64,000 nt of DNA from Eucommia ulmoides (lineage: Eukaryota; Streptophyta; Magnoliopsida; Garryales; Eucommiaceae): assembly GCA_016647705.1 (NCBI GenBank), contig CM028338.1, forward strand, positions 20,605,577 through 20,669,576, read 5' to 3'. Positions 19,444-56,039 of the stretch are shown here, piece after piece. A model generated the notes under the pieces. That model saw only the letters and a program-made list of their open reading frames with translations. It did not search any database and was not told where the DNA came from. The position numbers and the translations under genes were made by a program. Every line of letters begins with the position of its first letter. Within the stretch, counting starts at the first letter, position 1.

Positions 19444-19578
19444 GAAGACGTTGCAAATTTTTGTACGCAGATGAAAGTCCGTATCAAAAAAACAAAGAGA
19501 ATGACGTCTTTGATGAGGAGTGTGAATGTGGAGACCCCAATAATGACGAAAAAAAATTCAAAACATGACGATGATAAT
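19444..19578 (+). pseudogene. DML central exon, left part
   Basis: A 45-codon open frame, rich in Lys, Thr and Asn, ends NSKHDDDN exactly at the left edge of CopM. The right part resumes at 52918 with GACAAATTG (DKLSS) in the same frame if two bases (AT) are taken as the remnant of the target duplication. On its own this segment has no diagnostic motif, so the call rests on its continuity with the recognisable part across CopM. Confidence 0.5.
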
Positions 19579-19704
19579 TGGAAATGAGGAGAAGAAAATT
19601 ATTTTTCCATATTATACATAATCTGAGAAGGTGGTCGGACATAGAACAATAAATGGAAGCGGTTGAAAAGATGGCACATTAATGATATGAATTATATTTC
19701 AACA
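19579..19704 (-). repeat. CopM 3' LTR
   Basis: A 126-bp LTR, read TGTTGAAATATAATTCATAT ... CTCCTCATTTCCA on the minus strand. It matches 52795-52917, including CCATTTATTGTTC, CCACCTTCTCA and AAAATAATTTTCTTCTCCTC. At this length it is among the shortest copia LTRs. Confidence 0.85.
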
Positions 19705-19716
19705 CTCCCCCTCAAG
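19705..19716 (-). promoter_or_regulatory. CopM polypurine tract
   Basis: Minus-strand CTTGAGGGGGAG directly abuts the TGTTG start of the 3' LTR, as required for plus-strand priming. Confidence 0.85.
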
Positions 19717-19739
19717 TTGGGGCGAAGATGTTGATGAGT

Positions 19740-20522
19740 TCTTACTTGCTAATAGTTTCTCATGTGAAGTCCCAACTCGGTCAGAAGGGAACGAAGTCAA
19801 AAAAGTTCACACGTTCTATGTGCCATGATGCGATACTCAGCTTCAACAGAAAATCAAGAGACAACGGATTGCTTTTTACTCTTCCATGAGATGAGATGTC
19901 TCCCATGAAAGGTGCACAAGCCAAAGGTTTATCGTCCTTTAATCTTGCATAGTCAGCATCTGTAAAGCATAAGAGACTCTCATGTTCCCCTTTAATGCAA
20001 AAGAGGCCAACACCAGGGTATGTTTTGAGCTACTAAAGGATATGGTAGACAACATCCAGGTGTTGCATGCATGGTGAGTGCATAAACTGGCTCACAACAC
20101 TGACAGCATACGTAAAATCTGACTTTGTATTAGTCAGATAGATGAGGCAACCCACAAGTCGTTGATATACTGATGGATTTAATAATAATTCTCTCGATTC
20201 TGCTGTTAACTTAAGGTTCGGATCCATGGGAGTAGAAGTGAGTCTACATCCAAACATTCCAATGTCCTGAAGAAGATTAAGGGCATATTTTCGCTAAGAT
20301 AGAGATATACCTCACCGAGACCGAGCAAACTGAATACCATGAAAGTTGCGAAGATGACTCAAATCCTTGTTGTCAAAAATCTGTCTGAGATCCTTCTTTA
20401 CCTGCTTAATGCGAGACTCTTTGTCTCCTGTGATAATAATGTCATCCACATAGATTAAGATAATGATGCATTGTCCCTGGTACTAGTGATGGATGAAGCA
20501 GGTATGATTTGAGTAACACTGG
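19740..20522 (-). pseudogene. CopM RT C-terminal part and RNase H
   Basis: The minus-strand reading starts with HTCFIHH and GQCIIILIYVDDIIITGDKE; YVDD, the RT catalytic motif, lies at 20452-20441. It continues QVKKDLRQIFDNKDLSHLR, then GMFGCRLTSTPMDPNLKL and SVYQRLVGCLIYLTNTKSDF (20250-20120), the connection between RT and RNase H, and then LLCFTDADYARLKDDKPLA with the first RNase H Asp pair. The RNase H end is weakly conserved. Several stops and at least two frame changes are present. The RT is interrupted at 20523 by the solo Sire LTR and continues at 22629. Confidence 0.8.
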
Positions 20523-22628
20523 TGTTGATCCTAAGATTTTGATGAACAATTAAGTATTGATGTTTTGATGGAACTAATATTTAATTGAGTGTTTCAGTGA
20601 TTTAAAGTTCCAATAATGAAAACGTCAAATTAAATGGATGAGAAATGAAGATGTCAAGATGATGAAGAAGAATTAAGAGTTTGAAGAAATTAGGAAAAAC
20701 AACTCAGGTGAATCTTAACTCTTAATATCCCATTTAGGAACACACATATGGCACAAAATGTATTTTATCTTTTATGTGTGTTTTGATTAAGTTAAATTAT
20801 TTGCTCCTATATGAAATAAGAAGAAATGATTTTGAATGACTAAAATGGAATATAAGAATATTAGTGGAGCTAATCAAGAGAAGAAAATGGTTAAAGGGGC
20901 GAAATCATAAAAGAAAATAAGTCAGAAAAGAGATCCAGTGACAGCAGTCGACTAGTGAGTCGACCGGACAAAGAAGTTGTAACATCATGTATCTCTAAAT
21001 CGACCGACAGGTCGACCGGCCAAGAAGACTAAACTCTTTGAATCAACAAATCGACCGATAGGTTGACCGGTGAAGTAGTGCTGAACTCTTTGAATCTGTG
21101 AGTCGACAGGGCGGTCGACCTATGCACGCAGCGGCAATAGCTTGGTTGCAACCTGAGTTGGGCAGTCGACTAAATGCGCTGTTTCAAGATACAGGTTGAT
21201 CCTAGATTATATCTAAAAGTAGCCATTTTTTGTTGGAATTTGAGAGAGATTTTGGGGATATTCTCTATATGTAAGATATGGTTCATATACTAATTATATC
21301 CTATTAATAAGGTTCATTAAATATTAATGTTTCTTAATTTGGTACTTAAAATAGATTCTATACTTATTTATTAAGATTGAGAAATACATTGGGGGTTTAA
21401 TTGAGAGATTGGAAAGATATTTTTTAGTGGAATTGAACATAAATGAAGTCCTTATGATATAAGGGGTCTATAAGAGTTTTTAATTATCATGACACATGTA
21501 AACTAGTCGTTAGAATGTTGATTACATATTCCTTTAAATAGACCGGCTGATTTTTATTTGAGGACTAATCATTCATTGAGAGAGAGTTAAAAAAGTTTAT
21601 ATCATTTGTGAGCTTTTATAAGAGTGATCATTCTACGATGTAGTGAGCTTTTCTAAAAGTATTTTTGAGAATCAATTGTGATCAATTTTTGTTGATACCG
21701 GATTTGAAGCTACATTATTCTAATCATTATTTCTGTGGATTCCGAGTGAGATCTTTCCATATTTCTTATTATTTGTTTATTATTCTATATTTGGAAATTG
21801 ATCTTAAAAATTGTTTCTGATTTTTGAAAAAAATATTTTTTTCAAACAATTTTTTGAATCTGATTACGAGCTCCAATTTGCTACCCATATCTTGTTGAAA
21901 TCAGATTTTTGTATCTCACGTATTTCTATTACTAGTTGGAATATTAATTGAGTTAGTGTTTATCTTGGGTGGTAGAAGCTCCGAGTGAGATTTACTTCTT
22001 ATCAATTTTTGTATTGGTGAGTTGTGATGGGTTAAATACCATTGGGGGTATTTAAACAAGGGTAGTCGGGTTTCAGTCTCTTCTTGTAAAGAGATTGAGG
22101 TAGTGATTCTTCCTGGATAAGAATTGCATTGTGAGTGATTTGTAAAGGTTCCATCCTTACCTGTGAAAAGGATAGTTGGAGTATTTTGAGAGGATTTGAT
22201 TCTTGTGACTTAGTGTTAAAAAGAATTAAGTTATTCTTTAGCCTGTAAAAAATAGAGGTTCTTCCTGAGCCTGAGAAAAAGATATTGTAAAGGTTGATTA
22301 TGAGACTGTAAAATAATCGGTGAACGGGTTTGGTTTTTACCTTTAAAGGGATATTGGTTTTAGTGGGTGCGACCTCTGTAGAGCTCGGGGGACTGAATTA
22401 GCCAAGAGTAGCTTAATGAACTAGTATAAATATTTTGTGTGCTGCTATATTTACTTTGCTATATTTGTTGTTTGGGTGTGTACTTAGTTGATTATATTAT
22501 TTCGTTGTGTTATAATGATAATAAATAATTTAGGCTTAAAATTAATTATTTGATTTATTGAATTTTATCCTGATAATGTTTTAATTACCCAATTTACCCC
22601 CTCTTTTGAGTATTCTACTAGACCAACA
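20523..22628 (+). mobile_element. Solo LTR of the Sire1 family
   Basis: A complete LTR, TGTTGATCC ... GACCAACA, 2,106 bp, collinear with the Sire1 LTRs. The flanks ACTGG (20518-20522) and ACTGC (22629-22633) are a 5-bp target duplication with one change. Removing the LTR joins the CopM RT reading ...GKQC with YSNHTCF, as in related RTs. It arose by recombination between the two LTRs of a full element. It retains the GTCGAC-type array at about 20940-21170. Confidence 0.9.
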
Positions 22629-23110
22629 ACTGCTTACCCTATAGTGAGGATAGCTTCGTTGAATCAACTAAACCTTTCACGAAGAGATTGCTTAAGTCCA
22701 TAAATGGATTTTCGAAGTCGATAGACTTTGCTCGAATACTCCCTTTGAGTCCGAAATCCCGATAGAGGCTCCAGATAGTCTTAATAAGGTCACCATTAAG
22801 GAAGGTATTCTTGATATCCAATTGGTGCAGAGGCCAAGAATAGGACGCAACCAATGAAACAAGGAGCCGGACAGTAGTCAGCTGAGCAACCGGGGTAAAG
22901 GTGGCACCAAAGTCTTTCCTCGGGATTTGTGTGTAGGCTTTAGCAATAAGTCATGCTTTGTATCAATCAATCCATCAGTCAGATATTTGACACTAAAGAC
23001 CCACTTACAACCAACCGGCCGTTCACCAGTCGGCAAGTCACAATTCTCATGTCTGATTCTATTATAGGGCATCCATCTCTACTTGCATAGATGCGACCCA
23101 CTTTGGATTT
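22629..23110 (-). pseudogene. CopM RT N-terminal part
   Basis: Minus-strand pieces in order: KWVASMQVEMDAL (about 23100), GCKWVFSVKYLTDGLID (23010), then VASYSWPLHQLDIKNTFLNG (22854-22795), the conserved QLDVKNAFLHG block of copia RT with its first catalytic Asp, and GFRTQ...RLRKSIYGLKQS (22760-22690). The reading stops at the target site of the solo Sire LTR. Stops and frameshifts are frequent. Confidence 0.8.
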
Positions 23111-24373
23111 CAAAGAGCCTCATGAACGGAGTGAGTAATGACAACTGAATCAATTTGTCCAAGGAAATATTTATATTGATACAAGAGATCATGAAAATAT
23201 AAATATTGGGAAATCAAATGATTAGTAGAATATGAAGGGAGATAGAGGGATGGTGGACGACGTTCCCGAGTCGGGTAACGAGGGGGACTAGGGTTAGATA
23301 TAATGGAAGATGGAAAGATACCTGAGTCCGGAGAGGTTGTTGGCTGGGGATTTGAGATATGTGGATGAGAAGAGTAAACCCGTATTGGGGTGGGTGGGGA
23401 GAAGGTGGTGGGTGTGATATGGGTAGAGAATGTATATCTAAGACAAGAATAAGACACAAAAGATGTTCCTCAATAGTGGTTGCCTCAAGAGGTGGAGAAC
23501 GTATTATACCAGAAAAATAGGGTACAGTTTTAAGGAACATAACATCGAGAGAATGGTAAGTATGGTAAATTACTAGATTATAGCACCTATATCCTTTCGA
23601 CATAGAAGAATACCTGAGGAAAACACACTGAATAGATTTATCATCTAACTCAGTGTGAGTAGGGCTCCGATTCTGGACAAAACACGTACAGCCGAAGATG
23701 CAGGGTAATATAGAGGAAAGGGTGCTAGTGGGTTGCGGTATATGCATGGGTATTTTTCCTATAAGGACACGACTCGATGTGCGATTAACAAGATAGGCAG
23801 TAGTAAGAACTACCGTGTGTCAAAAAGATTTGAGAACATTCATTCCTCGCAAAAGATAATGGACTACAGACATGATGTGATGGTTCTTACATTCCGTCAC
23901 ACCATTTTTTTCAAGGGTGTTGGGACAAGTAAGTTGCTTAAGGATGCCTTACTTATTAAGGTCAACCCAAAATTCAACGGGTAAGTATTTTCACCCATTA
24001 TTGGACCCGATATTACAAATGACAATTTATATTGGGTTTTTATTATTTAAAGAAAGTGGGTAAAGTGAGTGTAAACCTCTTATTTGTGATTCATCAAATA
24101 AACCTAAGTACACCAACTATAATAATCCATGAAGGTGACATAGTAACGGTGTTTGGAAATGATTGTAATAGGAGAGGATCCCCAAATATCAGAATGGATG
24201 AGATCAAATACTTGGGAGGCAAGGTGCATGTAAGAAATGTAACAGGTGCGGGGGTGTTTAGACAATTCACAAACCACATATTGAAATTTAAAATCCTTGC
24301 AAACTTTATTAATAGACGAAAACAACCAACGTAAGTAATGAAAATTCGCATGTCCCAGACGGGCATGCCACAA
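23111..24373 (-). pseudogene. CopM integrase and integrase-RT linker
   Basis: Starting at 24373 the minus frame reads WHARLGHANFHYLRWLFSS, the GAG-pre-integrase/zinc region (H...H, then C and C further on), then FDLIHSDIWG with the first catalytic Asp and FMDYYSW. In shifted frames follow LVNRTSSRVLSYR (about 23770) and similar core pieces. From 23457 to 23110 comes a Pro/Ser-rich linker (PPTPIRVYSSHPHIS, RYPTRERRPPSLY) ending near VEMDAL of RT. The integrase would insert the DNA copy. It is broken by multiple stops. Parts of 23700-24090 are nearly unreadable. Confidence 0.75.
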
Positions 24374-24990
24374 GTTTAAATTTTTAAATGAACAAATAGA
24401 AGAATAAAAAATAGGTAATCCAAAAGCTTGGATACTAGAAGGTGGGACGGCTAGATGTGGAGGACTTCCGAAATAGTAAAGACCATCGCATTCATATCAT
24501 CTGCTAAAAATCTTCCTTATAGTTAGGTCTTGTAAGAATTAATGGTCAGGTAAGAATACAACTGTGCAGTTATGATTTTTAGCAAGATGACTAAGCGATA
24601 TAAGATTATAGTTAAATTTAAGAACATAGTAAATAGAGTGAAAAGTGATATCTAGGGGATAAACCGGCATCTTCCTAACAATGAATAATGATAGAGGTAC
24701 TATCTGCAATACACAAAAATTGGTTGATAGGTGAAACATGAGAGGTAAAGGTAGAAAACTCACCAGTCATTTGATTGTTAGCCCTGAAGTCCAAAATCAA
24801 AGTAGGGTAACCAAACTTAACATGGAGCGCAGTAAGAGTACCCGAGGCAAGAGCAGTTGTTGGTCTGAAAGACGATGCCAAAGTGGTTAACTGAGCCAGA
24901 AGTTGGGCAATTTGGGCTTGGACGTGGGAAAGATTAAGGAGAGCTGGTGGTGGATTTGTCGGACCGGGGACAATATCAGTAATAGCACCA
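24374..24990 (-). pseudogene. CopM protease region
   Basis: On the minus strand (24881-24675) the frame reads LILDFRANNQMTGEFSTFTS and HVSPINQFLCIADSTS. This is the copia aspartic protease region, where the family reads LDSGA-x-x-HMTG. Here the active-site DSGA has become DFRA, so the catalytic Ser-Gly is lost. Downstream, 24760-24540 reads PLSLFIVRKMPVYPLDITF and NLISLSHLAKNHNCTVVFLP, the usual bridge to the GAG-pre-integrase domain. Confidence 0.75.
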
Positions 24991-25801
24991 GTACGTGGTA
25001 CTCATTTTCTTTTTCTCCTGCCTAGGTTTTGAGGTTTTTAACTCTGGATGAAGGTTATAATAGCAATCAATGTGATAACCAGGCTTTTATCAATGCTGAC
25101 ATTATGGTCGTGTTCCTGATTGGCGAGGACCGGAGAAGCCCAAAAAGGCTAGTTGCTCAAGAACATAATGAATAACTTCAGGTAGGAGAATGAGTCGGCA
25201 TTTTGAATCATTATCGATAATAGAAAATGCACTATATAGATCAGGCATCGGTGACGATGATCCTGACGCTTGGACTCGATCTCTGTAACATTCTCAGGGA
25301 ATTCACTCAGAGGTTCATACTGCTGAAGTTTCTCCTACCGAGTTTGAAGGTACCCAAAGTAATATGCAACTAATAGTCCCAATGATGCCTGGGAGGCATG
25401 AGAGATCTCATGGTAGTTCTCTGAAATCTAAGATTCACTGTGAGAATGGGCATACATCTTTGTAAGAGCATACCACAAACCTTTGACAGTCTCGTAGAAC
25501 ATGAACATATTATAAATCCATTATTCAATAGAATTGAAGATCCACCTGAGGATGCAACAATTATAGCATTCCACTGAGTAATCTTGGGATCGTTCATATT
25601 TAGTTGTGGCTTAGTTCTATCGAGCCATCTAGTCGTACGTCTTGTACCAAGGTAGAGACGGAGGGAGCGAGACCAGGCATGAAAATTCACTCCATTGAGT
25701 AAGATGGTTGTAACACGTTGGGCTGTGGCCTTAGTTGTACGTGTAGAATGTGAAGCAGGTGGGTAGTTGTGCAACAGGAACAGTTTTAGATGGGATGTCA
25801 C
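24991..25801 (-). pseudogene. CopM gag
   Basis: The minus frame reads RVTTILLNGVNFHAWSRSLR and LYLGTRRTTRWLDRTKPQLN then DPKITQWN (about 25730-25560), a typical copia Gag N-terminal domain (NYxxWSxxxxxxL). In another frame it continues WYALTKMYAHSHSESQISE and EISHASQASLGLLVAYYFG, the UBN2-like part of Gag. The first codons of gag appear to lie on the far side of the Ath5 LTR (32541-32518). Gag assembles the particle. At least three frame changes make this copy inactive. Confidence 0.8.
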
Positions 25802-26884
25802 TGATAGGTTGAATTTACTTATATATTTTTAAGCCGAATTTGGTAGTTTTCGAGTGTTTTTGTAATGTTTTAAATTGTTTATTTCTTTTTATGTAAATCA
25901 GGTGTAGGGATGAAAATGGTGGATAATCAAGCAAATTAGTAGGAAGTCGGTGGAGAAAAGTTGAAAAAGATCCAAGAAAAGAAACTGCAGCGATGAGCCC
26001 CATTACTATAGCGCTAGCGTCAAGGGCTACTGACCCTTGACCGTTGTAGCGGTGAAGAGTCAGTAGGCCTTCTGCCTAACCACCGCTGCAACGATGGCCT
26101 TTATCATTACAGCAATAAAAGGGAAGAAGCCCGACTGACCTCCCATCACTGCAGCAACCCGACATCACTTGGCAAAGATATGTTTGGGATATTTTTAGAT
26201 ATTTTTTTTTATCTCTATGATATCCACCCATTCCCTACACCTATAGAGGACATTTTGGGGAACATTTTTGGAAATATTTGGGATCTCAAGATCAAGAACC
26301 AAGAGGAGAAATCATCAAGAGGAGAAGATAAAACATTCTTAAAGCCGATTTCGCGGAAGTAAAACCATTCACTTCAAGATTTGTTTTCCATTCTTTGTTT
26401 CTCTCTTTGTTCTTCAACTTTTTATATTGTATGATGATATTATTCTCATGTAATGTTGAATATGTGGTTATGATCATGAGTAGCTAAGTATCTATTGTCT
26501 AGGGATTGAATTAGTTCATGAAAACTATGTTCGTTTGAATTGTTGTTTCGTTAACGGTTGTTCATTTGCATTCGATTGTGTTTGCCATTTCATTACATCC
26601 ATTATATGCTTGTTATGATATTGTGGTTGGTTTGAGAATATGGGGTTCGACACTCGGGAGAGGTGATAGGTGTAAAATACTTACGTATTTCCAAATCGGT
26701 TTTGTTAGTTTTCGAGTACGTTTATAGTTATTTTTATGTGTTTTAATTAGTTTTCATACTTTTTGTATAAATCATGTGTATGGGGCATAAAGATAGGAAA
26801 CTGGAGCGAAAAAGATGAGATCGAACCAAAGCGAATCGAAGTTACGGTGAATAAATAAGCTCGGAGGCTAAAATATGAAACAGG

Positions 26885-27180
26885 CCCACCGCCTAGGCGT
26901 CTAGACCACCGCCTAGGTGGTGAAGAAGCTGAGAAAAAAGCAAAATGTTACTGACGGATGAATACCTAGGTGAAGATTCCTTCGCCTAGGCGGAAATCCA
27001 GTAGAAAACGAAGATGAGCTACTGACAACCGCTTGCCTAGGCGAAGATTCTTTCGCCTAGGCGAGAATCCAACAAAATGTTCTTCCACGTCCAACACCTA
27101 CTTCACTGCCTAGGCGGTCAGCCGAACCAACCTAACTTCGCCTAGGCAAAGTTTTCTTCGCCTAGGTGGAAATCCCCTAC
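26885..27180 (+). promoter_or_regulatory. CGCCTAGGCG palindrome array upstream of the Ath4 TATA box
   Basis: About ten CCTAGG cores lie in under 300 bp, most within CGCCTAGGCG or CGCCTAGGTGG, arranged as pairs 15-20 bp apart. The last is about 60 bp upstream of TATAAATA (27233). Each core is a perfect palindrome, and neighbours can pair with each other. The 3' LTR has a shorter array (about 30680-30868). Confidence 0.85.
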
Positions 27181-27232
27181 ACAGTCTTGAGATATTTTTA
27201 GATATTTTTAGGATATTTTGGTTATAAATACC

Positions 27233-27240
27233 CCCTCTCC
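27233..27240 (+). promoter_or_regulatory. Ath4 5' LTR TATA box
   Basis: TATAAATA followed by CCCCCTCTCCTCC, a CT-rich initiator region typical of plant promoters. The same motif lies at 30910-30917 in the 3' LTR. Confidence 0.75.
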
Positions 27241-28396
27241 TCCCCCTTCTCCGGCCTCTCTCTTGCTCTCTTGCATTTTTTAGCCCCTTAGTCTATATCT
27301 AAGGGTATATTTAGGAGTTTTAGAGGTGGATCTCACATCCCGAAGTGGAGAAGACGGCGAATCGATCGTTGAGCGTTCTTAGCGGTTTATCTTCGGACGA
27401 GGCTAAGTTCTTCTATTGTTTTTCCTTATTTATTTATGTTAGGATCATATGAGCATGTTTAGCTCAATTTATATGTTTATGCGGCTATGGCCACGAGTTA
27501 AATATGGATTGTAGTAGGGATTAACGGTATATTTATAAATATATTTGTTTGGATGATTTCGGTGTTGCGTTTATGTTTGTTCTTCGTAGTTTGATTGTGA
27601 TTATCGTATTGTTTGTTTATTATGATTAGAATGGTAAATGGAGAATACGGGATTTTGACAAACCTCGGATTCGGATTAGGGTAAACAAACGCCACGATTC
27701 TATAACCCGGTCGAGGTTTGAATCGTGGACAATCGATGACGTTGGGGTAAGACGCACGCGACCCAGGGTCGTTAAGACATTGAGGGGGACTTAATGGTTG
27801 ACACAAAGTTGCGTTATATCCCTCGTCTTACACTCGAGAGAGGTGGAGAGGGAGTTTTAAAACGAAGATTGTCGATAGGGTAAATACAACGCGGCGATCC
27901 AATAACCCGGGAGGGAGTTGGATTGTGTTCAATCAATGATGCTGGGTGAGACTCACGTGACTTAGGGTCGTTAAGATGTTGAGGAGAACTTCTTCGTTGA
28001 CTCGAAGTCATGTATTCCCCCATCTTACACTAGGGACAGGTGGCGGTGGAGTTTACGTACCGAGGTTGTCAAATAGGTCGAACACCGTAAACGTGAGTAA
28101 ATCAAGATCGAACACGTATTTGTAAACACATTAATCCCTAGGCAATTATTTACCCTAAAACATATTAACATAATAGTGTAGTTAATTTAGGTTATATTAG
28201 TATTAGATTAATTAATTAAATACATTTGTTTTTTTCCTAGATAAAATTAGGTCACGACAAACGCGGTATTCGATAGTAACGACACCAATCCCTGTGGATG
28301 CGATAACCCAATCTTAACGATCACACTATACTAAAACTTAAATCTCGTATACCTGCGAGTGTAAGTAGCGGCGTATTTTATGCTTTACCAAGTTTT

Positions 28397-28414
28397 TGGC
28401 GCCGTTGTCGGGGA
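28397..28414 (+). promoter_or_regulatory. Ath4 primer binding site
   Basis: TGGCGCCGTTGTCGGGGA, one base from TGGCGCCGTTGCCGGGGA, the complement of the plant tRNA-Asp 3' end that Athila elements use. It lies six bases after the LTR end. Confidence 0.85.
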
Positions 28415-28521
28415 TTGTTTTGATGTTATTGTCAGAGAAATGAGGTAACGGCTCAGGACTTAAGTTTTAGATAGGAAAAGCAAGTTTATCGTATTCTAGT
28501 CCCGTCAATGTAACAAGTTTT

Positions 28522-28539
28522 TGGCGCCATTGCCGGGGA
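28522..28539 (+). promoter_or_regulatory. Second primer-site copy in Ath4
   Basis: TGGCGCCATTGCCGGGGA, preceded by the same CAAGTTT context as the first site and lying 125 bp downstream. It too differs by one base, a different one, from the tRNA-Asp complement. Confidence 0.85.
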
Positions 28540-28565
28540 TTGGCAAAGTGGTTATTGTCGATATC

Positions 28566-28647
28566 GTGAGTAAATGACCTGATTTTAATTTAGGCATTTC
28601 TTTGTATATAATTTTTGTCTGTAGTTTTGTTTTTGTTTCTTATGCAG
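28566..28647 (+). other. Leader intron of Ath4 (predicted)
   Basis: Donor ATC|GTGAGTAAA and acceptor TTTCTTATGCAG|G enclose 82 T-rich bases. The same donor and acceptor flank 89 bases at the same place in Ath3 (34698-34786), just before the gag start. Conservation of both splice sites with a diverged interior suggests a functional intron in the leader. Confidence 0.5.
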
Positions 28648-28935
28648 GTACTTGCCGATATTAGATCATCGGGTATTGATGCATCCCTTTCGACGGGATT
28701 CCAAGTCGTTTTATGTTGCTTGGCCAAGCACATAAGGCAATAAGGTGTTTCGTTGAGAGATTGAGCCATTCAAAGAAAAACCTCGCCAATCTGGAGGGCG
28801 TTCTGAAAATGTTGGGCCGAGGACATTAAACCACGCGCTTCTTGGGAGGCAACCCAAGGTCAAAATAAGTTAAATCCGTTACATCCGACTTGATTTGGAG
28901 GTGAGACCCTCTCGCCTCCCAGGTAAGTGTTCTAA
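28648..28935 (+). pseudogene. Ath4 gag start fused to the 3' internal region
   Basis: An ATG at about 28679 begins MHPFRRDSKSFYVAW, matching the Gag start of Ath3 (HFFQRDSKPFY). After a few codons the frame stops. The text then matches the end of the Ath3 coding region (NLANLEGVL and a conserved block up to CGCCTCCCAGGTA). So nearly all of gag and all of pol were deleted. The product would be a short nonsense peptide. Confidence 0.6.
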
Positions 28936-32794: not shown

Positions 32795-33025
32795 TGATAA
32801 AACGTGATCCTAGTCCAAGTCCTAGTCTCCACAATTTCCACATGCAACCCACACTCCAACTCTCCATAGTGATTACATCCTAACCACATCTTCTATTTTG
32901 TGGTTTTCATGCATTAGGGGTTATTATACTTTTAGAACTTTACTTGTTGATAACATTTCATATACACTGTAATATAAATTGGTTGAAAACTTTGATGGAT
33001 AAAGTAAGCCATTTTTCTATTGTCA
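32795..33025 (+). repeat. CopP 5' LTR
   Basis: A 231-bp LTR, TGATAAAACGTGATCC ... TTCTATTGTCA. It matches 51364-52367 once the insertions in that copy are removed. Confidence 0.85.
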
Positions 33026-44320: not shown

Positions 44321-44963
44321 GAGTGAAACGGTCCACTATCGCTAAAGATCACTCCGCAAATGATTTCTCTTTGCCCAAATGATGAACCTCCTTCTTGATC
44401 TCTCAAAGATGGATTAAGAACAATATATTAGGGTTAGGGATGCTGAACAACCACTTTCAGACGTGGGAAAGGGGTATTTATAGGCCTAAGGTTTCAAAGA
44501 GATCTAAAAAAAAAAAATTGTCTGAACAGAGATTTCTGCCTAGGCGGTAGTTTCTCCGCCTGGGCGAAGGAATGAGTCGGTTAACTTCCCGCCTAGGTGG
44601 GGGCTAACATAAAACATTCTGACGGTTATCCTCCTAGGCGGTGGTTCTCTTGCCTAGGTAGAGGTTCAACAATCCAACTCCCTGATGGTTCTCCGCCTAG
44701 GCAGTGGTTTTCTCGCCTAGGCGGAGTTTCAGCACTCCAACTCTCTGACGGAACTTCAACTCTCTGACGGAACTCCGCCTCTTGAAATCTCATTTTTTTA
44801 TCTTTTCTTTACCGTTTTCCCACCGTTTCGCTCGGTTTGTCAATTATTTATGGCCTTACACCTGATTTATACAAAAACAACTAAAACGCAATTAAAACAT
44901 TAATAAAACACGTGAAAACTGGCAAATTCGACTTGGAAGTAGATAGGTATTTTAAATATATCA
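44321..44963 (-). repeat. Ath2 5' LTR, first ~640 bp only
   Basis: Matches 39178-39859 of the 3' LTR. It contains the U3 start, a palindrome array and TATAAATA (44482-44475, minus strand). It stops at GAGTGAAACGG (44321), where integrase sequence begins. Confidence 0.9.
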
Positions 44964-45112
44964 TGTTTCCCAGCTATTCCATTGTCAATCACTTTTTTTA
45001 TTGTTTCGACCCACAAACCAATAACACATTTGTGTCTCGCCATGTTAAATTTGAAAAAAATAATATTTTCTTTTAAAACAAATTCTCATATGTCTTCTTG
45101 GGTTAACCCTAT
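44964..45112 (+). pseudogene. CopP integrase end
   Basis: After Ath2 the CopP frame continues PSYSIVNHFFYCFDPQTNNT and FVSRHVKFEKN, the end of the integrase core region before the linker (family: CFDPxTxKxFVSRHVxFDE). It runs to SSWVNP and is cut by the insertion at 45113. Confidence 0.85.
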
Positions 45113-47883: not shown

Positions 47884-48365
47884 CCTATAAAAACCCAAAA
47901 CTTCGTCTCAAGTCTCTACCATCCTCCCCGAAATGACTCAACTATGCTCAATCAGCAGGCCCAACGTTCCCCAAGCCCAACAAACCCAAAGCCCACCCAT
48001 ACCAATCCAAACAAACTTACATCATCCTTACCAAAACAAAGTAGGCCCAACGAATCCCCCACACTCATTAACTCCTCACCCGGCCCACTAACCAACCGGC
48101 CCAACCCCACTAAATCACCAACTCTCATCACCTCCTCACCAAAGCCCCTACAAAGCCAACCCACTTATTCTCCTCCTTTCCATGACACAAATGACCACTA
48201 ATTCTTCCACTATCCATAATCATAGGCCACTTCAAATTAACAATCTCCACTGTCCACTACTCTACATAATTGCAAACCTACTTCCTTATCCACTCTCCAA
48301 GATAACCGATCGACCCTCTCTCCCAAGCAAACTAAAAGACCACGTGGGCCCCCAACTCTTCATTC
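47884..48365 (+). pseudogene. CopP Ser/Pro-rich linker, first part
   Basis: The frame reads IKTQNFVSSLYHPPRNDSTM and then many Pro, Ser, Thr and Asn residues (SPTNPKPTHTNPNKLTSSLP). Such a low-complexity linker lies between integrase and RT in copia polyproteins. Cut at 48366 by the hAT-like element. Confidence 0.7.
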
Positions 48366-49145
48366 TAGGTTTCAGTTGGGCGGGTCGGAGGATGGGGATT
48401 TTTTTGGCTGACCAGAATGTTTTTGGAGGGTATAATTCCGACCGACCCCGTAGCCGACGGGATTGGCCACCGTCGGGTTTTGGGATGTTCGGGTTTCAGT
48501 CAGTATCGGTCGGATTTCAGGTGAGTAATGAAAAAGAAAACTCTAACACTAACAGATTCTTAGAAACACATTCAACAACAATGGCAACAACAAGAAGCTT
48601 ACAGATTGTGATTTGCGACGAATAACAAAAAAGGCGACGAACAACGTCGACGGCAACGAGCAACATCCATGGCAAAGAACAACAACGACAACGAACAACA
48701 ACAACCGCAACGAACAACATCCACGGCAATGACCAACATTGACAGTGACGAAGAACATTGACGGTGATGAACAATCAACATTAAGGTTATAATTTTGAGA
48801 TCAAGAGATGATGAGATTTTGAGATCTGAAGTGATGAAAGAATGAAAAATGAGAGAGGTGGCGCATCGCAAATCGCAATGGGAAATTAGGATTATAATTT
48901 TCTATATATAGTGGGGTTTTTTGTAATAAACAATTGTCAGGGGGTGGGGAATGTAATATGAGCGCCTCTTTTTTTTAAGTCGGTCGGATTCGGGCAGGGC
49001 GGGCGGTGGGAGTAGTAAATCCGACCCTTTTCCTCTCTCTTGTCAGGCGGGCGAGTCGGGTAAAAAACAAAAAAAAAAATAGAAGCTAAATCCGACCGAA
49101 CCCGAGGCGGGTCGGGCAAGGCGGCGGGTTTTTCTTTCACCCCTA
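48366..49145. mobile_element. Non-autonomous hAT-like element
   Basis: A 780-bp insert with an exact 8-bp target duplication CTTCATTC (48358-48365 and 49146-49153), the size made by hAT transposases. Ends are TAGG... and ...CACCCCTA. Near both ends GGCGGGTCGG-type motifs recur (48377, 48968-49110), which may be subterminal transposase-binding repeats. The interior has a CAACGACAACGAACAACA-like low-complexity stretch (48625-48770) and no transposase. The terminal inverted repeats are short and degenerate. Confidence 0.65.
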
Positions 49146-49835
49146 CTTCATTCTACTCCCATCAACCACACATCCGCTCCCTCTACCCAACTAAATATTA
49201 ACCGGCCCACTACTTCCTCCACTCTCAATGATACTCAACCCAACCACTCTACCACACTCTATGATATTAAACGTGGGGCCCACAATTTCCCATAATTCTA
49301 CAACTCTCCATAACGCATCACCATATCACCAACCATGCAAGTCATTTTTTCTCCCACACTCACTAATCTTAACTGTGGGCCATTCACTCTCCATGCTTCA
49401 CCGGCTATCAACAACTACTCACCAATTCTGCGAAATATGCGGCCCAACTCCTCTCTCCCTCTAAATGATCTTACACGTCCGGGAGAGTGTACTTCGCCAA
49501 CTGCATCTGCTAAACTGTCAGTTCCCAATCCATACTCCAACCCTCCTACACTCTCGGCGCCCCCATCCACCCTATCCACCGATCACTCAACCACTAACAC
49601 AAAGTCGGCTACCTCAATAGTTCCTATCTCCACTACTCATGTACCACGGAATGTGTCCACCTCTCTTCCGGATCCAAATCACTCCTCTATACCCTCATCT
49701 CCAATCCAACAAGCCACCTCTTCTCTCATCATCACTCAGTCTCACCACAATATATTCAAACTTAAAAAAAAAAAAATTGACCTCAACACCTCTCTCTCCT
49801 TTTCTACCCAATCATTTCTGAGCCTACTCCTTTAC
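49146..49835 (+). pseudogene. CopP Ser/Pro-rich linker, second part
   Basis: Pro/Ser/Thr-rich frames (SPTASAKLSVPNPYSNPPTL, VPRNVSTSLPDPNHSSIPSS) lead to a region with SLIITQSHHNIFKLKKK, the end of the linker just before RT (family: HxMxTRSxxxIxKPxxK). Confidence 0.7.
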
Positions 49836-51363
49836 CCAAGCCCAGAAACTGAAACCGTGGCGGCAGGCTATGTGCGAAGAGTATGTTGCTCTTCACAACA
49901 ACTCCACGTAGTCTCTTGTTCTCTTTCTCTCCTACACAAAATATTATTGGAAGTAAGTGTGTGTATTAAATCAAACAAAATCCAGATAGTTCTATTGCTC
50001 GTTACAAGGCTCGTCTTGTTGCTAAAGACTTTCATAAACGGTCTGGAGTTGATTTCACTGAACATTTAGTCCGATTGTTAAACCAGCCATAATTCGTCTT
50101 GTTCTTAGCATTTTCGTCTCTCGAGGATGGTCCTTATGTCAATTGGATGTGAACAATGCCTTTTTGCAAGCCCGACTGTGTGAAGATGTCTTTATGCAGC
50201 AACCTCAAGGGTTTGTGAATCCTCAGTTTCCAAACTATGTGTGTAAGCTCAACAGAGCCATTTATGGCCTTTGCCAAACCCCTCGTGCATGGTGCAATGA
50301 GCTGCGATCTTTTCTCACTCTCAAAGGCTTCTGTAATTCTCGCTATGATACTTCTATATTTGTCAGCTGCACATTTACTGTTAGACTCTATCTTCTCGTA
50401 TACGTGGATGACATAATTATAACGGGCAATAGTGAGGTGGCTATTCAAGAGTTTATTGCTACTCTCTCCCGCCAATTCTCTCTCAAAGACTTAGGCTCCT
50501 TGAGTTATTTTCTAAGTGTTGAAGCTACTCATACATCTTCTGGTCTTCATCTCTCACAGCAAAAGTGAATTACTAATCTTCTCGATAAAACAAAAATGCA
50601 TGAGGCTAAACTCGTCAATACCCCCATTGACTTCGACCGAGTCTCTCATGCTTCATGATGAGTTCCCATATCACAATGTCATGGAGTATTGACAAGTTCT
50701 TGCATCTCTATAATACATGTCTCTTACTCGTCCTAATGTATCTTTTGCAGTTAATAACCTATCTCAGTTTATGCATCGGCCGTCTACCAATCATTGGAAT
50801 GTAGTCAAACAAATTCTTCGTTATCTTAAGGGTACACTACACTTTGGCTTGTTTCTTCGACGTCACTCGTCTTTGTCTCTTTATGTCTTCACCGATGCTG
50901 ATTATGCTCGCAACAAGGACAAATATTCATTTATATCTGCCTGTGTAATCTTTCTCGGTCCTAATCTCATCAGCTGGATCTCTAAGAAAGAACTGACTGT
51001 TGCTCGGTCCACTACGAAAGTTGAGTATCGAGCCATAGCTTCGACTACTGCTGAAGTTAACTAGCTATATTACCTACTCCAAGAGCTTAGTTTCTCTCTT
51101 CGCATTACTCCAACCATCTACTACAATAATGTTGACGTAATTTATGTTTGTGCTAATCCGGTCTTCCATTCCAGAATGAAGTATGTTGCTATTGATTTTC
51201 ACTTTGTTCGAGATCAAATCTTCAAAAAACAACTTTGAGCCACACATGTACATACTTTGGATCAATTGGCCAACTCTCTCACCAAGCCACTAGACCGAGC
51301 CTAATTTCAATCTCACTGTTCCAAGCTTAGCATTCTTCTAAATGGCTTGCACTTGCAGGGGCA
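49836..51363 (+). pseudogene. CopP reverse transcriptase and RNase H
   Basis: The reading, with frame changes before 50100, has ARYKARLVAKDFHKRSGVDF, then QLDVNNAFLQARLCEDVFMQ with the first RT Asp, FPNYVCKLNRAIYGLCQTPR, YVDDIIITGNSEVAIQEFIA with YVDD intact at 50401, and LKDLGSLSYFLSVEATHTSS (to 50568). After a stop-ridden stretch come SLTRPNVSFAVNNLSQFMHR, ILRYLKGTLHFGLF, FTDADYARNKDKYSFISACV, SWISKKELTVARSTTKVEYR (RNase H) and DQLANSLTKPLDR near 51290. The central RT (50143-50568) is one uninterrupted frame. A short purine run, GCAGGGGCA, precedes the 3' LTR. Confidence 0.9.
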
Positions 51364-51477
51364 TGATACAATGTGATCCTAGTCCATGTCACAATCTCCA
51401 CAACTTCCGCATGCAACCCATACTCCAACTCTCCACAGTGATCACATTCGACTCACGTCTCCTATTTTGTAGTTTTA

Positions 51478-52189
51478 GGTTGTGTTTGGGTAAAGGATTT
51501 GTAGGGAGAATTTAATTTGTTTAGAGGATTTTAAAATCATCTTTTGACAAATTCTTTGTTTGAGTTTTAGGAGGGAGAGAATTATAAAATCCTTTAAACT
51601 TAAAAAAATGGTAAAAGAAGGGATTTTGAAATCCTTTTGAAATAGACCGACTTTAACAAATCATTCTTGCTCATCAATCATCTTCGTCGCGTCTTCGTTC
51701 ATTGATCATCGTTGCCATCTTCTTTGTTTGTTTTCGTCTATGCCGTCTTCTTTGTTGATCGTCTTCACCATCTTCGTCGTCGTCGTTCATCTTCGTCGTC
51801 ACTGTCTTCTTCGTCGATCGTCTTCTTCGTCTTCGTCGTTTTCGTCGTCGTCCCAGCTTCATCTTCGCCGTTGCCTTCATCGATCGTTCCTTCGTCTTCA
51901 TGTAAGGGTTTAGGGTTCAATTTCGTGGGGTATTGTTAATTAGGGTTCTCAATTTAGGGTTCCGATTTCGTGGTTCTCAATTTTTGATTAGGGTTCCAAT
52001 TTCATGGGGTATCCCGATTTCTGATTTCGATTCCTGTTTTCATTTTCGTTATGGTGTTCATAGTTCATCCAATTGAGGTGATGTTTGGTTTTTGTTCTAT
52101 CCAAATAAGGAATTTGTTAAATGATGGGATTTCAAAATCTAAAATTTCGAAATTCCATCATTTAACAAATTCTTCCCCCAAACGCAACC
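51478..52189. mobile_element. PIF/Harbinger-like miniature element
   Basis: The ends GGTTGTGTTTGGG and, inverted, GGTTGCGTTTGGG form a terminal inverted repeat, flanked by TTA on both sides (51475-51477 and 52190-52192), the target duplication of PIF/Harbinger/Tourist elements. Further inward, TTTGACAAATTC and its inverted partner GAATTTGTTAAATG also pair. The interior (51665-51900) is a TCG/TTC-rich Ser-coding stretch, followed by TCTTCATGTAAGGGTTTAGGG and repeated TAGGGTTC blocks. No transposase is present. Confidence 0.75.
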
Positions 52190-52217
52190 TTAGTTTTTAT
52201 ACATTATTATACTTTTA

Positions 52218-52266
52218 GATTTTGAAATCAATCATTTAACAAATCCCTCGCTCATACGCAACGTCA
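52218..52266. repeat. Truncated second copy of the PIF-like element end
   Basis: ATTTTGAAATCAATCATTTA then ACAAATCCCTCG...ACGCAACG resembles the right end of the element at 51478-52189. It is followed by a duplicated piece of LTR (TTATTATACTTT), so a second insertion or a gene-conversion event is likely. Confidence 0.5.
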
Positions 52267-52367
52267 GTGGTTATTATACTTTACTTGTTAATAGCATTTC
52301 AATATACACTGTAAGATAAATTGTTTGAAAACTTTGAGGAATAAAGTAAGCCATTTTTCTACTGTCA

Positions 52368-52777
52368 GGATATCCCGCAACGTGCGGCTATACAAAACAG
52401 GTGCTGGACGACAGCCTTGGTTCGCGAAGAAAGCTGGAGGTGATTCGCAAAACTAGGGTTCGCGAAGCTGCTGAAGTTAGTTCGCGAAACGAGGCGGAAC
52501 ACGATCTTGTTCGCGAAGTTGTCAAGTTGCTGAAGTTGGGTCGCGAAACGAGGTTGAACCCGATTTGGTTCGCGAAGGTTGCAGCCTGTGGTGGCTGGTA
52601 GCGTTGCAGCGAGGTTCGCGACCTGACGAGGGTGGCGGTGGGTTAGGGGCTCGCGAGATCTTGCGGCGGCGGCTTCGGTTTCGATAGGTTGGGTTGCGAT
52701 CGGACAGTGGCTGTGCGAAGGTGGTGCGAAGAAGGTGCAGCGGCGGCTGGTCTGGGTTTGGGTGGGAAATTTTGTTT
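52368..52777 (-). other. CopM leader with TTCGCGAA palindromes
   Basis: GC-rich leader between the CopM primer site and CopP. On either strand it holds about five TTCGCGAA palindromes (52419, 52450, 52480, 52509, 52569) and several TCGCGA variants up to 52650. Part of it is an open minus frame (52881-52522) rich in Pro, Arg and Ser, but it starts inside the LTR and is not a known protein. Confidence 0.6.
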
Positions 52778-52791
52778 GGCTCTTGATACCA
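52778..52791 (-). promoter_or_regulatory. CopM primer binding site
   Basis: Minus-strand TGGTATCAAGAGCC, the initiator tRNA-Met complement with one extra base, three bases after the LTR end. Confidence 0.85.
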
Positions 52792-52794
52792 AAT

Positions 52795-52917
52795 TGGAAA
52801 AGAGGAGAAGAAAATTATTTTGCCATATTGAACAATTACATATTTATACATAGTTTGAGAAGGTGGTTGGGCATGGAACAATAAATGGAACTAGTTGATA
52901 TGAATTATATTTCAACA
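52795..52917 (-). repeat. CopM 5' LTR
   Basis: A 123-bp LTR, TGTTGAAATATAATTCATAT ... CTCCTCTTTTCCA on the minus strand, matching 19579-19704. It borders the DML reading DKLSSATDS directly. Confidence 0.85.
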
Positions 52918-53385
52918 ATGACAAATTGTCTTCTGCCACTGATTCAACTCCATCACCATCAGAGAAGCTGACTTCAAGTGAAAGGCGTAATAATAGCGCA
53001 GACTTGTACGAGAAACCCAAAAAGAGACCCAAAGAGAAAAAGTGTAGACCCAAAGTGGTAGTTGAGGGCACACAGAGAAAGTCTCCCAAAAGCCTTCAAC
53101 TCCGAAGCCTGTTACCCCAAAGCATGCTACTAAAGCATAAAGTACTCAAGGGACGAGAAATTATATTAGGAAGCACATCCTTAAAAACACGGCGAATTCC
53201 TTTAATGGGCAAGTGGTTTATATAAATTTTGAACATTCTTCAAAAACAGTCAAGCGGTCTCTGAATTTTCGGTTACGAAACTAGCTGGGAGATGATAATG
53301 ACACAGAAATTGTTGAACATACTTAATCTGCCAAGGTGAGTACATCTGATAAAGAGAGAGCCTAGTCCTAGAGTGTCAACAAATT
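52918..53385 (+). pseudogene. DML central exon, right part
   Basis: The reading DKLSSATDSTPSPSEKLTSS is followed by KPKKRPKEKKCRPKVVVEGT (about 53010-53070), a conserved basic block of DEMETER-family proteins. Near 53085 the frame shifts, and the reading becomes KPSTPKPVTPKHATKA-stop-STQGTRNYIRKHILKN, then EHSSKTVKRSLNFRL (53231-53275), the RSLNF block, with another stop. The Lys-rich part binds DNA non-specifically in this family. Two frame changes and two or more stops are visible. Confidence 0.8.
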
Positions 53386-54232
53386 CCTCTAATGATGCTG
53401 ATGCCCAAGGGCAACCTTCTTCTAAAAATTTAGGAATATCACGTTGGAGAGATGTAAATTCCAATTAAGAAAACCTAAAAAATATGCAAAATTTGGGAAA
53501 AAAAAATGATCATCAATCTCAACATCACACTATGCATATCAACAAACCTTCATGTAAGCGGAATTTTACAGTTGCGTACTTATGCTTCTTTTTCTTTGTT
53601 CGTTTCTTTTAGAACGGAGGAACTAATGCTTGAAAATTTGGCAGACATGGCATCTAATGTATCTAATGTCAGCCACCTTGAGGATTGTACTCAGCCTAGT
53701 TACATGTCACTGGTAGGAAGAGGAGATTGTATTTACTAGAATAATTGTCGGTACATAAGACAACTGTTGCGTGTCTATCTAAGAACATTCCAAAGGGATC
53801 AAAGTCAGAAAAATAGCAAAAAATTAGGACCGAACTTTCCAGACATATTTAAGAAAGTAGAACAAGGAGACAGTAGACAACGAGGCTTGAGGCTAACAAT
53901 TATTCTGGTAAACACAATCTCCTCTTCCTACTAGTGACATGTAACTAGGCTGAGTACAATCCTCAGGGTGGCGGACATTAGATGTCATGCCTGCCAGGTT
54001 TTCAAGCGTTAGTTCCTCTGTTCTAAAAGAAACAAACAAAGAAAAGCGTAAGTACGCGACTGTAATACATGAAGCTTTGTTGATATGCATAGTCTGATGT
54101 TGAGATTGATGATAATTTTTTTTCCAATTTTGCATCATTTTTTAGGTTCTCCAAATTGGAATTTACCTCTCCAACATGATATTCCTAAATTTTTAGAAGA
54201 TGGTTGCCCTTGGACATCAGCATCATTAGAAA
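53386..54232 (+). repeat. Inverted duplication inside the DML pseudogene
   Basis: The left arm (53386-53755) and right arm (54232 back to 53894) are inverted copies of about 340-370 bp. They share GATGCCCAAGGGCAACC, CTAAAAATTTAGGAATATCA, ATCAATCTCAACATCA and GAGGAGATTGT. The loop (53756-53893) ends with a block (GGACCGAACTTTCCAGACAT) that recurs as a direct copy right after the right arm (54239). The translated arm includes EELMLENLADMASNVS and SYMSLVGRGDC. A transcript across it would fold into a long hairpin. Confidence 0.85.
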
Positions 54233-54690
54233 ATTAGGACCGAACTTTCCAGGCATGTTTAAGAAAAGTTGAACAAGGAGACAGAAGACAACCAGGCCTG
54301 ACGCTTTGTGGTCTACTGTACTTGGCATTAAATTGCTGAAAGAATGTAAAAGCAGTGACAGTCAAGCCTAGTAAATCTGAAATTGTAAAAAAAGTCACCT
54401 TAACAAGAAAGCAGAAAGTCGCTAGAAACTCTGAAGTGAACTGCAATTATGTTGACAGCTGCAATATCAACATGAGAAAGAAGTTTGCCAGAGTGATTTT
54501 ACCCATAGAAAAACAAATCAAGGCAGCAGTTAGTGATCCAAAATCTTTCAGTTGCATGCTGAATTTATACCTGATAGTACAAGTTAAGAAAAAAAGATTA
54601 AAGGGACTCAAGGGACTCACTCGGAGGCCCAATTACGCTGCCCTAACAGAATTTTCTAATAGAAAATCAATCAAGGGGAATAATTAATGA
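54233..54690 (+). pseudogene. DML middle segment
   Basis: An open frame from 54355 to 54687 reads VKPSKSEIVKKVTLTRKQKV, NYVDSCNINMRKKFARVILP and KKRLKGLKGLTRRPNYAALT. The Lys/Arg-rich end followed by ALTEF resembles the segment of DEMETER-family proteins ahead of the domain that starts GALVP. Similarity is weaker than in the flanking parts. Confidence 0.5.
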
Positions 54691-55089
54691 TTAAGAACTC
54701 TTTAAGTGCATTAAGGCTTTGCACCCACTTGTACAATTTAGAAAGAAGAGATCCAAGAGATTTGCCAAAAGGCATGAGATCCTTGAATCTAAAGCTTCCA
54801 TTGATCAACTTGCAGAGAATCAAAGTTTGGTGACAGGGAGAGAGAAATATTAGATCCTTCCTTGGGTGCAAGGCAAACTCTCTTGGAAAGCCATTGCAAG
54901 ATAACGTTGGCGCTATCCAGTCTTCCTTTTGGAAAGAAAAGAATTTTGTAATTGATATCCGAGGCTAAAAACTGCAGCATGGAGGTGCCTCACGTGCTCG
55001 GCAAGATGAGGAGGCTTTGCGTGGTATTGAAGGTAACTTGAATAAGATCATATTTTTATTCAAAGCAAATCTTCACCAAGGAGAGAACA
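54691..55089. other. Unassigned part of the DML pseudogene
   Basis: About 400 bp with short frames on both strands and no motif I can name. It may be decayed exon, intron or a small insertion. Confidence 0.4.
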
Positions 55090-55460
55090 ATGACTTCTTC
55101 TAATTTGAATTTTGGTGCAGATTCGGATGATGCCTTTTTAAACTTGTTTGATTATGTTATTTCTAAATTCAATTCTTTGAGTATTAGTGGAATATGTGGC
55201 CACCTTGTGGTGCGAGCTCAAAATGATCCTGGTGCACTAGTTCCCCATGGGGGCCGCACTGTTCGAGTGAAGAAGCCTAAAATACTTGCAAAGGTCTATC
55301 TTGACCCAGAAACATTGAGGATATGGAAGCTGCTGATGGAGAATGATGGAAGTGATTTCAATAAAGCAGCCAAATAAGAGAAGGAGAAGTGGTGGAGTGG
55401 ACAGAGAAGTATTCCGTGGACGGGCAGAGTTGTTCATTTCCTGCATGTATCTGATCCAAG
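55090..55460 (+). pseudogene. DML exon with the GALVP to FRGRAELF block
   Basis: The frame reads ISKFNSLSISGICGHLVVRA, NDPGALVPHGGRTVRVKKPK and AKVYLDPETLRIWKLLMEND, the start of the conserved region A of DEMETER-like enzymes (family: GALVPYDGxxDPxKKRKPRPKVDLDPET-x-RVWKLLM). A TAA at 55375 replaces a Glu codon, EKEKWW follows, and one extra base at about 55396 shifts the frame into DREVFRGRAELFISCMYLIQ. The exon ends CAAG|GTATTG at 55460, the expected splice point. These two lesions alone would remove the catalytic domain. Confidence 0.85.
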
Positions 55461-56019
55461 GTATTGTTGTACACTAAATTACACCTAAAAGACATTTTCT
55501 TTCAATGAAAATGAGGTAATTTTATAAAATTGAACCATCCTAATAATTGATGATGTCCCATAACTTTTTGGGCCTCGTTAGATATTTCCCTTTCATAACT
55601 TGCGTAAAAAAACGTCACCCCTATTCTGTCGCCACTAAGTTAGGGTGAGGGCCTGGGAAGGGATAATTTTTTCGTAAAAGGATCAGTACATTTATGGTTC
55701 TATGCAATGGACTCTTTAACATGCAAAATTGTAAAAATCGACCCACGTGAACAAAATCTGTTCAGCAAGAATATCAAGGTACGGTTCTAAAAGGTACATT
55801 TGTCTATTTAAACGTTATTGTATGCCTAAAACAGATCAACCTTAATTGGATATCTTGATTGCCGGTTTTAGATTCCTAGTATTAGGTTATTGACGTGTAG
55901 AAGGGCCTCTTTACGCACTAAACCATCTCTTTGTCAGAAAAATGTGGTCACAAATAGATGCATAATTTTCAGTTCACAGGAAGATGCAATTTTATTAACC
56001 ATAGAAGGATGTTGCACAG
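55461..56019 (+). other. DML intron (predicted)
   Basis: GT at 55461 and AG at 56018-56019 enclose 559 AT-rich bases. Joining the exons in phase gives ...YLIQ|GDRRFSP, which is how the family reads at this place. Confidence 0.65.
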
Positions 56020-56039
56020 GGGATAGACGTTTCTCACCT
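56020..56039 (+). pseudogene. Start of the next DML exon (GDRRFSP)
   Basis: Twenty bases read GDRRFSP in the phase set by the preceding exon. The family continues W-K-G-S-V-V-D-S-V, but here the next codons are antisense copia integrase, so the exon was cut right after FSP. Confidence 0.65.

Follow-up and report, generated by a model that had tools for sequence, protein, structure and literature searches.

Evidence for a duplicated DEMETER-like DNA glycosylase pseudogene split by nested retrotransposons in Eucommia ulmoides

The Eucommia ulmoides segment C14:20605577-20669576, a stretch of 64,000 nucleotides from a 947-Mb assembly (hereafter the window, whose numbering is used throughout), very probably contains a pseudogene that arose by duplication of a DEMETER-like DNA glycosylase (DML) gene and has kept introns. 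The second exon of this copy is interrupted by CopM, a Copia long terminal repeat (LTR) retrotransposon that carries further elements, and a sister gene with open exons lies on C11. The type of event is well known, and the locus clearly illustrates an ordinary process. It provides a well-resolved case history of the death of a plant gene copy, in which the sister gene serves as both empty site and clock, and the duplication, an intragenic rearrangement and the insertions can be partly ordered.

Family identity and the sister gene on C11

Assignment to the DML family relies on protein matches to the broken exons. In the PDB, the exon 4 piece (55.1-55.4 kb) has a match to ROS1 (7yhq/7yho, E 7.6e-9), and the broken protein, read through with X at the stops, gave one match, a Rhododendron molle DML (E 6.3e-21). 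This protein as query yielded 1179 relatives, the best 120 of which are used throughout. Each of the 120 has window hits at E <= 0.01 (best E 3e-17), all of them within 53.0-55.5 kb, and 117 of the 231 match rows centre on 55.2-55.4 kb in frame 1. These matches, together with ROS1, bear out the family named in an initial annotation of the stretch, and the RPKVVVEG, RSLNF, GALVPHGG and FRGRAELF blocks that it listed were all found where it had placed them. The permuted CXXC domain PF15629 is present in many of the best 120 of the 1179 relatives; a Pfam scan of the broken pieces themselves gave nothing useful. In a tree of 355 columns, the pseudogene falls inside a clade with nine DMLs (from Liquidambar, Bertholletia, Camellia, Rhododendron, Actinidia, Cornus, Nyssa, Sesamum and Cinchona) with support 1.0, while support for its nearest neighbor is just 0.27. 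Seven of the 120 DMLs, three of them from Actinidia, were removed for gaps, and some pieces of the pseudogene are loosely placed in the alignment, so that the deep grouping alone counts.

A genome search with a DML protein gave at least 31 matches (32 of 45 candidates were scored, making this a lower bound), and all 31 lie on C9, C11, C12 and C14. For PF15628 (RRM_DME), the genome search gave nine matches, confined to C9, C11 and C12. The DNA of the pseudogene itself is found at two genome sites, C14 and C11:43.313-43.337 Mb (43313000-43337265), the location of the sister gene. The C11 exons that could be placed have open frames, the splice sites checked for exons 1-5 are canonical, and the gene retains GLGLKS, VDTNVGR, the cysteines of the iron-sulfur (FeS) cluster, the RRM exons and, close to its end, an exon of 14 residues. 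The two copies are 87% identical over 52924-53894 and 92% identical over 54228-56038, and introns 2-4 of the C14 copy align to those of C11. With introns of its own retained, and with a parent in the genome whose exons are open and separated by introns, the locus is as expected of a duplicated pseudogene. At the site of CopM, C11 is contiguous and lacks the element, with some bases missing there. The two flanks of CopM align, in order, to this one C11 paralogue and hence do not come from unrelated genes.

The DMLs on C9 and C12 are more distant from the C14 copy than is the C11 gene; their best matches are Nyssa DMLs, and the names of other near matches suggest a ROS1-like gene on C9 and a DEMETER-like one on C12. 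With these genes and the open sister on C11, the paralogues that the initial annotation had proposed to look for are present in the assembly. Because the plant therefore still has this kind of gene, the irony seen there, of a demethylase gene turned transposon graveyard, is softened.

Two features of the C11 gene deserve mention. An intron of ~10.4 kb follows its FeS exon, and its FRGR block has lost a conserved arginine (FCGR), along with other conserved residues elsewhere.

Exons of the C14 copy and the insertion of CopM

The exons of the C14 copy, and the elements that break them, are as follows; positions above 64000 lie outside the window.

18197..18310, plus strand: exon 1 with start codon and N-terminal motif VTPAKPIPARP, 3' end approximate (tblastn of DML N-termini, C11 alignment)
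19471..19575, plus strand: 5' part of exon 2, up to CopM; ATGAT at 19571-19575 is the left target-site copy (C11 alignment)
19576..52917, minus strand: CopM, a Copia LTR retrotransposon carrying nested elements, inside exon 2 (LTRs, primer-binding site, polypurine tract, target-site duplication, Pfam domains)
52918..53553, plus strand: 3' part of exon 2 (DKLSSATDS...RPKVVVEG...RSLNF); ATGAC is the right target-site copy (C11 alignment, tblastn)
53613..55032, plus strand: exon 3, interrupted by an inverted duplication (flanking introns align to C11)
55121..55460, plus strand: exon 4 (GALVPHGG...FRGRAELF...LIQ), then a phase-1 donor (ROS1 and DML matches)
56020..56039, plus strand: truncated start of exon 5 (GDRRFSP), broken off by a second Copia (same acceptor and phase in C11)
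56040..56265, minus strand: second Copia fragment (integrase), cutting exon 5 (tblastx to the CopM integrase stretch)
56266..64000 in the window, full extent 56266-69132, minus strand: Ath1, an Athila-like element
71850-71912, outside the window: decayed YELHCQLIAFEKV exon (best E 0.009)
74701-74763, outside the window: FeS exon, VFCTKKQPKCNACPMRGECR (matched by 119 of the 120 DMLs)

Exon 1 is matched weakly when the whole window is searched (13 of 120 DMLs at E <= 10, best E 0.076), and the best E becomes 2.1e-4 when the search is narrowed to 17.9-19.6 kb. Across the six frames, its motif VTPAKPIPARP has a single occurrence, at 18239; none of 100 mononucleotide shuffles contains it, and 13 of the 120 DMLs have it near the N-terminus. 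Exon 1 is 93% identical to that of C11 over 43 bp. The C14 copy keeps a longer exon 1 (18197-18475) with a weak full-length match to a Cornus DML, and C11 is shorter there; given this longer exon, C14 may carry the older of the two copies.

A CAG acceptor precedes exon 2 in both copies. The left piece reported initially does contain DML exon 2 sequence, but the exon starts at about 19471 rather than 19444. Similarly, its SKHDDDN reading belongs to exon 2, but the true coding frame left of SKHDDD is another one (DESPYQKNKENDVF... against DERLPYPNNKEDQVF... in C11), which places a frame change upstream of the CopM site. When CopM and one target copy are removed, one frame reads SKHDDDKLSSATDS, and at the same join a frame is open from the start of exon 2 through KKNSKHDDDKLSSATDSTPSPSEK / KKNSKHDDDKLSSATDSTPSPSEKLTSS. 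The introns at 53554-53612 and 55033-55120 have GT..AG borders and align to the C11 introns.

The structural parts of CopM, an insert of 33.3 kb, are listed below.

19576..19704, minus strand: 3' LTR
19705-19713: polypurine tract, CTCCCCCTC on the plus strand, adjoining the inner end of the left LTR
22642..25828, minus strand: internal remains in Copia order (Pfam for three of four open reading frames, ORFs)
22642-22950, minus strand: RVT_2 (Pfam)
23217-23819, minus strand: integrase SH3 domain, SH3_retrovirus (Pfam)
24107-24496, minus strand: gag-pre-integrase, gag_pre-integrs (Pfam)
25373-25828, minus strand: ORF, gag-like by eye, with no Pfam match
52778-52791: primer-binding site TGGTATCAAGAGCC (minus), directly inside the right LTR
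52792..52917, minus strand: 5' LTR

The LTR pair, primer-binding site, polypurine tract, target-site duplication and the order of integrase before reverse transcriptase identify CopM as a Copia element. Its LTRs align with 35 gap columns and are identical at 100 of the 110 positions that pair. The target-site copies ATGAT and ATGAC share four of five bases if the LTR ends are read as AATTGG...CAACA, and three of five if they are read as TGG...CAACA. DML sequence halts at the Copia border and continues beyond it, confirming that the insertion lies in coding sequence, and CopM holds further elements, in agreement with the nested stack first described.

On the right, DML sequence within the window stops at about 56039, at the second Copia fragment. 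This fragment resembles the integrase stretch of CopM by tblastx (36% over 66 amino acids, E 3.7e-6) and has no Pfam match. Ath1, which follows, is 12.9 kb long and is bordered on both sides by a perfect AACCA target-site duplication; its LTR pair, this duplication, its primer-binding site, which we take to be of the TGGCGCCGTTG type, and its pol homology (57-67% identity for the best two matches of the pol piece) mark it as an Athila-like Gypsy element. Weak matches at 69.2-69.9 kb look by eye like gag-pre-integrase sequence from a minus-strand Copia. Because Copia-like sequence stands on both sides of Ath1 (56040-56265 and 69.2-69.9 kb), Ath1 probably sits within the second Copia.

A search past Ath1 for remaining exons, also proposed at the outset, succeeded in part. 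The decayed YELHCQLIAFEKV exon and the FeS exon were found there, their regions being 87 and 93% identical to C11, and the FeS exon of the C14 copy retains the C-X6-C-X2-C-X5-C cluster in VFCTKKQPKCNACPMRGECR but is followed by a frameshift. In the 80 kb to the right, no other DML match appeared at E <= 1e-4 and the post-FeS exons were not found; the genome search with PF15628 likewise found no RRM_DME on C14. The helix-hairpin-helix glycosylase domain has a catalytic lysine and aspartate. In the C14 copy, the exons for this part are reduced to the beginning of exon 5 and the decayed YELHCQLIAFEKV exon, and the helix-hairpin-helix with its two catalytic residues was not found.

Decay, rearrangement and order of events

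Relative to C11, the C14 copy carries 13 indels in exons 2-4 (exon 2 right of CopM, exon 3 minus the inverted insert, and exon 4), nine of which change the frame, and stops in 10 of 634 aligned codons. With the insert in exon 3, these lesions uphold the initial call of a pseudogene. Between the copies, the nonsynonymous distance is 0.069 and the synonymous distance 0.106, with an omega of 0.65 (0.44-0.98), about the expectation for one free and one constrained lineage. The exons are no more conserved than the introns (Kimura two-parameter distance, K2P, 0.076 and 0.062, with overlapping intervals). Of the residues that differ, 66 could be compared with five or more outgroup residues; C11 agrees with the outgroup at 27 of these and C14 at 13, 19 are tied, and seven are stops in C14. 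Over 185 conserved columns, there are 119 matches for C11 and 109 for C14. On these counts C11 is the more constrained copy, if not strictly so, and constraint on it may have relaxed as well. No methylation-type excess of C-to-T changes was detected in C14 relative to C11 (62 vs 58).

A lesion that goes beyond the initial description is a 335-bp inverted duplication within exon 3, consisting of the following parts.

53388..53748, plus strand: arm 1, comprising the exon 2 end, intron 2 and the exon 3 start
53820..53894, plus strand: 75-bp segment with a direct repeat at 54230-54305, across the inverted copy
53896..54230, minus strand: arm 2, the inverted copy of arm 1, within exon 3

Neither the inverted copy nor the 75-bp repeat is present in C11. 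The event took place at the DNA level, since arm 1 includes intron 2, and it alone destroys exon 3. The arms differ by 7%; over 333 columns, they carry 13 and 11 unique changes and share 14 relative to C11, which would place the duplication early in the C14 lineage, provided that the rate of change in C11 does not exceed that of the arms. The form of the C14 insertion, a direct duplication flanking locally copied filler, fits staggered breaks followed by patch repair. Such a model is reported for rice insertions in PMC7407515, with Vaughn and Bennetzen (2014) as its cited source.

It is conceivable that minus-strand read-through from downstream retroelements turns the two arms into double-stranded RNA, and that the resulting small interfering RNAs (siRNAs) silence the C11 demethylase, now or formerly. 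In that case, the retroelement graveyard would in turn influence a gene whose product affects the methylation of transposons. The predicted fold is stable (-514 kcal/mol, whereas 15 shuffles average -185; stem of 334 aligned bp, loop of 147 bp), 21-mers of the arms occur exactly in C11 (29 of 341 and 18 of 315), and the orientation of Ath1, with its primer-binding site and pol on the minus strand, is towards the inverted duplication. Rice pseudogene pairs with stems >100 bp and loops <2 kb are tied to siRNAs in the accessible portion of PMC2708354. However, just 17 of 341 21-mers pair perfectly, none of those 17 is exact in C11, and the arms, 7% apart, indicate an old and decaying structure. 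We consider such silencing very unlikely. Trans-silencing of the C9 or C12 gene is rejected, as no 21-mer is held in common.

The following history is proposed. A DML gene was duplicated to give the C14 copy and its open-exon sister on C11, and the C14 copy would have evolved at a near-neutral rate from its birth. Exon 3 then received the 335-bp inverted copy of the exon 2/3 border, together with a duplication of 75 bp, probably through early break repair. CopM entered exon 2, probably afterwards or at about the same time, and became a target for further retrotransposons, growing into the present 33.3-kb insert. Later, the second Copia would have cut exon 5, with Ath1 inside it.

Several observations weigh against parts of this history. 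Some C11 matches are listed with stops, although those inspected are match edges in introns. The two copies cannot be aligned upstream of exon 1, which leaves the extent of the duplication unfixed; in a microsynteny comparison of C14 and C11, only transposon-like matches were seen outside the gene. C11 departs from the outgroup residue at 13 of the 66 differing sites, and its lead in the conserved columns is small. The K2P distances of the nested LTR pairs are 0.084 and 0.098, against 0.062-0.076 for the duplication, with overlapping intervals; taken as an order, this is impossible, since the nested elements lie in CopM and must postdate the duplication. The CopM LTRs (K2P 0.098, 0.047-0.167) are too short for dating. 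Lastly, transversion distances give a possible order as point estimates, but their intervals overlap except for that of Ath1.

The conflict in K2P calls for caution, as all-substitution LTR distances exceed, as point estimates, that of a necessarily earlier duplication. The transition/transversion ratio is 3.1-3.6 in the nested LTR pairs, 6.1 in Ath1 and 3.0 in the inverted duplication (2.3-6.1 over all LTR pairs), compared with 1.4 between C14 and C11; because the LTR ratios exceed that of the gene copies, K2P overstates the age of the elements compared with that of the duplication. Transversions alone give distances of 0.029 (0.023-0.036) for the duplication, 0.028 (0-0.068) for CopM, 0.023 (0.011-0.036) and 0.018 (0.011-0.025) for the nested elements, and 0.011 (0.006-0.016) for Ath1. 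This order is possible, as expected if methylated LTRs mutate faster. Ath1 is younger than the duplication; the transversion interval of CopM appears too wide to place that element in time.

CopM may have landed in an already dead gene, since the early inverted duplication in exon 3 is lethal by itself. A possible but less favored reading is that a working DML gene was lost through the insertion in exon 2 and gathered its other lesions afterwards: CopM lies in coding sequence, and its transversion distance of 0.028, close to the 0.029 of the duplication, allows a very early arrival. That distance has an interval of 0-0.068, however, the inverted copy is early too by its 13 and 11 unique against 14 shared changes, and the pairwise omega of 0.65 leaves little time under constraint.

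Two further explanations concern the locus as a whole. The retrotransposon sequence may have been misjoined into a real gene during assembly, since the region is rich in repeats; this is highly improbable, because the ends of CopM are true element ends (primer-binding site, polypurine tract, four of five target-site bases), Ath1 has its perfect AACCA duplication, and the lesions inside the exons are independent of the junctions. At first view, C14 ended with the FeS exon and C11 began with the next one, suggesting a gene split by translocation into an N-terminal half on C14 and a C-terminal half on C11. This is next to impossible and is rejected: the earlier C11 exons, including its own FeS exon, lie within 10 kb further upstream, and the apparent gap is due to the 10.4-kb intron. 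A duplicated pseudogene with an open sister thus remains the preferred reading.

Comparison with known systems and neighboring elements

Duplicated pseudogenes carrying transposon insertions are common, and plant genomes contain nested stacks of LTR retrotransposons in which younger elements lie within older ones. The C14 stack differs from the usual ones in that its base is in a coding exon and an empty-site paralogue is available for comparison. The C14 copy shares with DEMETER, ROS1 and other DMLs (7yhq) the N-terminal motif, the RPKVVVEG basic block, the GALVP...FRGR block, the GDRRFSP exon start, the phase-1 intron and the FeS exon. In contrast to working members of the family, it has frameshifts, stops, the exon 3 insert and retrotransposons in exons 2 and 5, and it is without most glycosylase exons; in the search described above, no exon after the FeS exon was found.

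In the literature, no comparable case was found by title or abstract, in a coverage without most subscription journals. The nearest parallels are partial. The Arabidopsis UNG pseudogene At2g10550 is described, in the available text of PMC10573277, as a DNA glycosylase duplicate broken by two transposons; both are disrupted glycosylase duplicates, whereas the C14 copy derives from another glycosylase and has a 33-kb nest and an inverted duplication. SmDML5 and SmDML6 of Salvia, termed probable pseudogenes in the part of PMC5940787 at hand, are likewise asterid DML duplicates with near-neutral evolution but are expressed, and that part does not describe splitting by retrotransposons. The rice siRNA loci of PMC2708354, as far as the accessible portion goes, are also inverted, hairpin-capable pseudogene copies with an existing parent gene; small RNAs are reported for rice, while the C14 hairpin is a predicted one.

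The elements nested in CopM are the following.

20525..22631, strand unassigned: solo-like 2.1-kb LTR, a relative (80-81%, blastn self-comparison) of the LTRs at 1073-3154 and 5660-7770
26664..32405, strand unassigned: nested element, ends approximate, with repeats 27020-28392 and 30738-32076 taken as LTRs
38405..44963, strand unassigned: Athila-like element related to Ath1, with repeats 39170-39859 and 44313-44963 taken as LTR parts
50062..50565, plus strand: Copia reverse transcriptase remains (RVT_2, E 2.2e-39)

The repeats at 27020-28392 and 30738-32076 are 92% identical by substitutions, and the Athila-like element holds a Transposase_32 ORF on the minus strand. The ORFs beside the nested reverse transcriptase, 49314-50066 and 50714-51061, have no Pfam match.

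Just 5' of exon 1 lies an old, degenerate direct repeat of ~1.2 kb (15130-16343 vs 16996-18043, 67-76%). Near the left end of the window, an element at 1073-7770 has 2.1-kb LTRs (1073-3154 and 5660-7770) that are 92.6% identical by substitutions, with 2.5 kb between them. Relatives of these LTRs occur at 20525-22631, at ~136.6-138.8 kb on C14 and downstream of the gene on C11.

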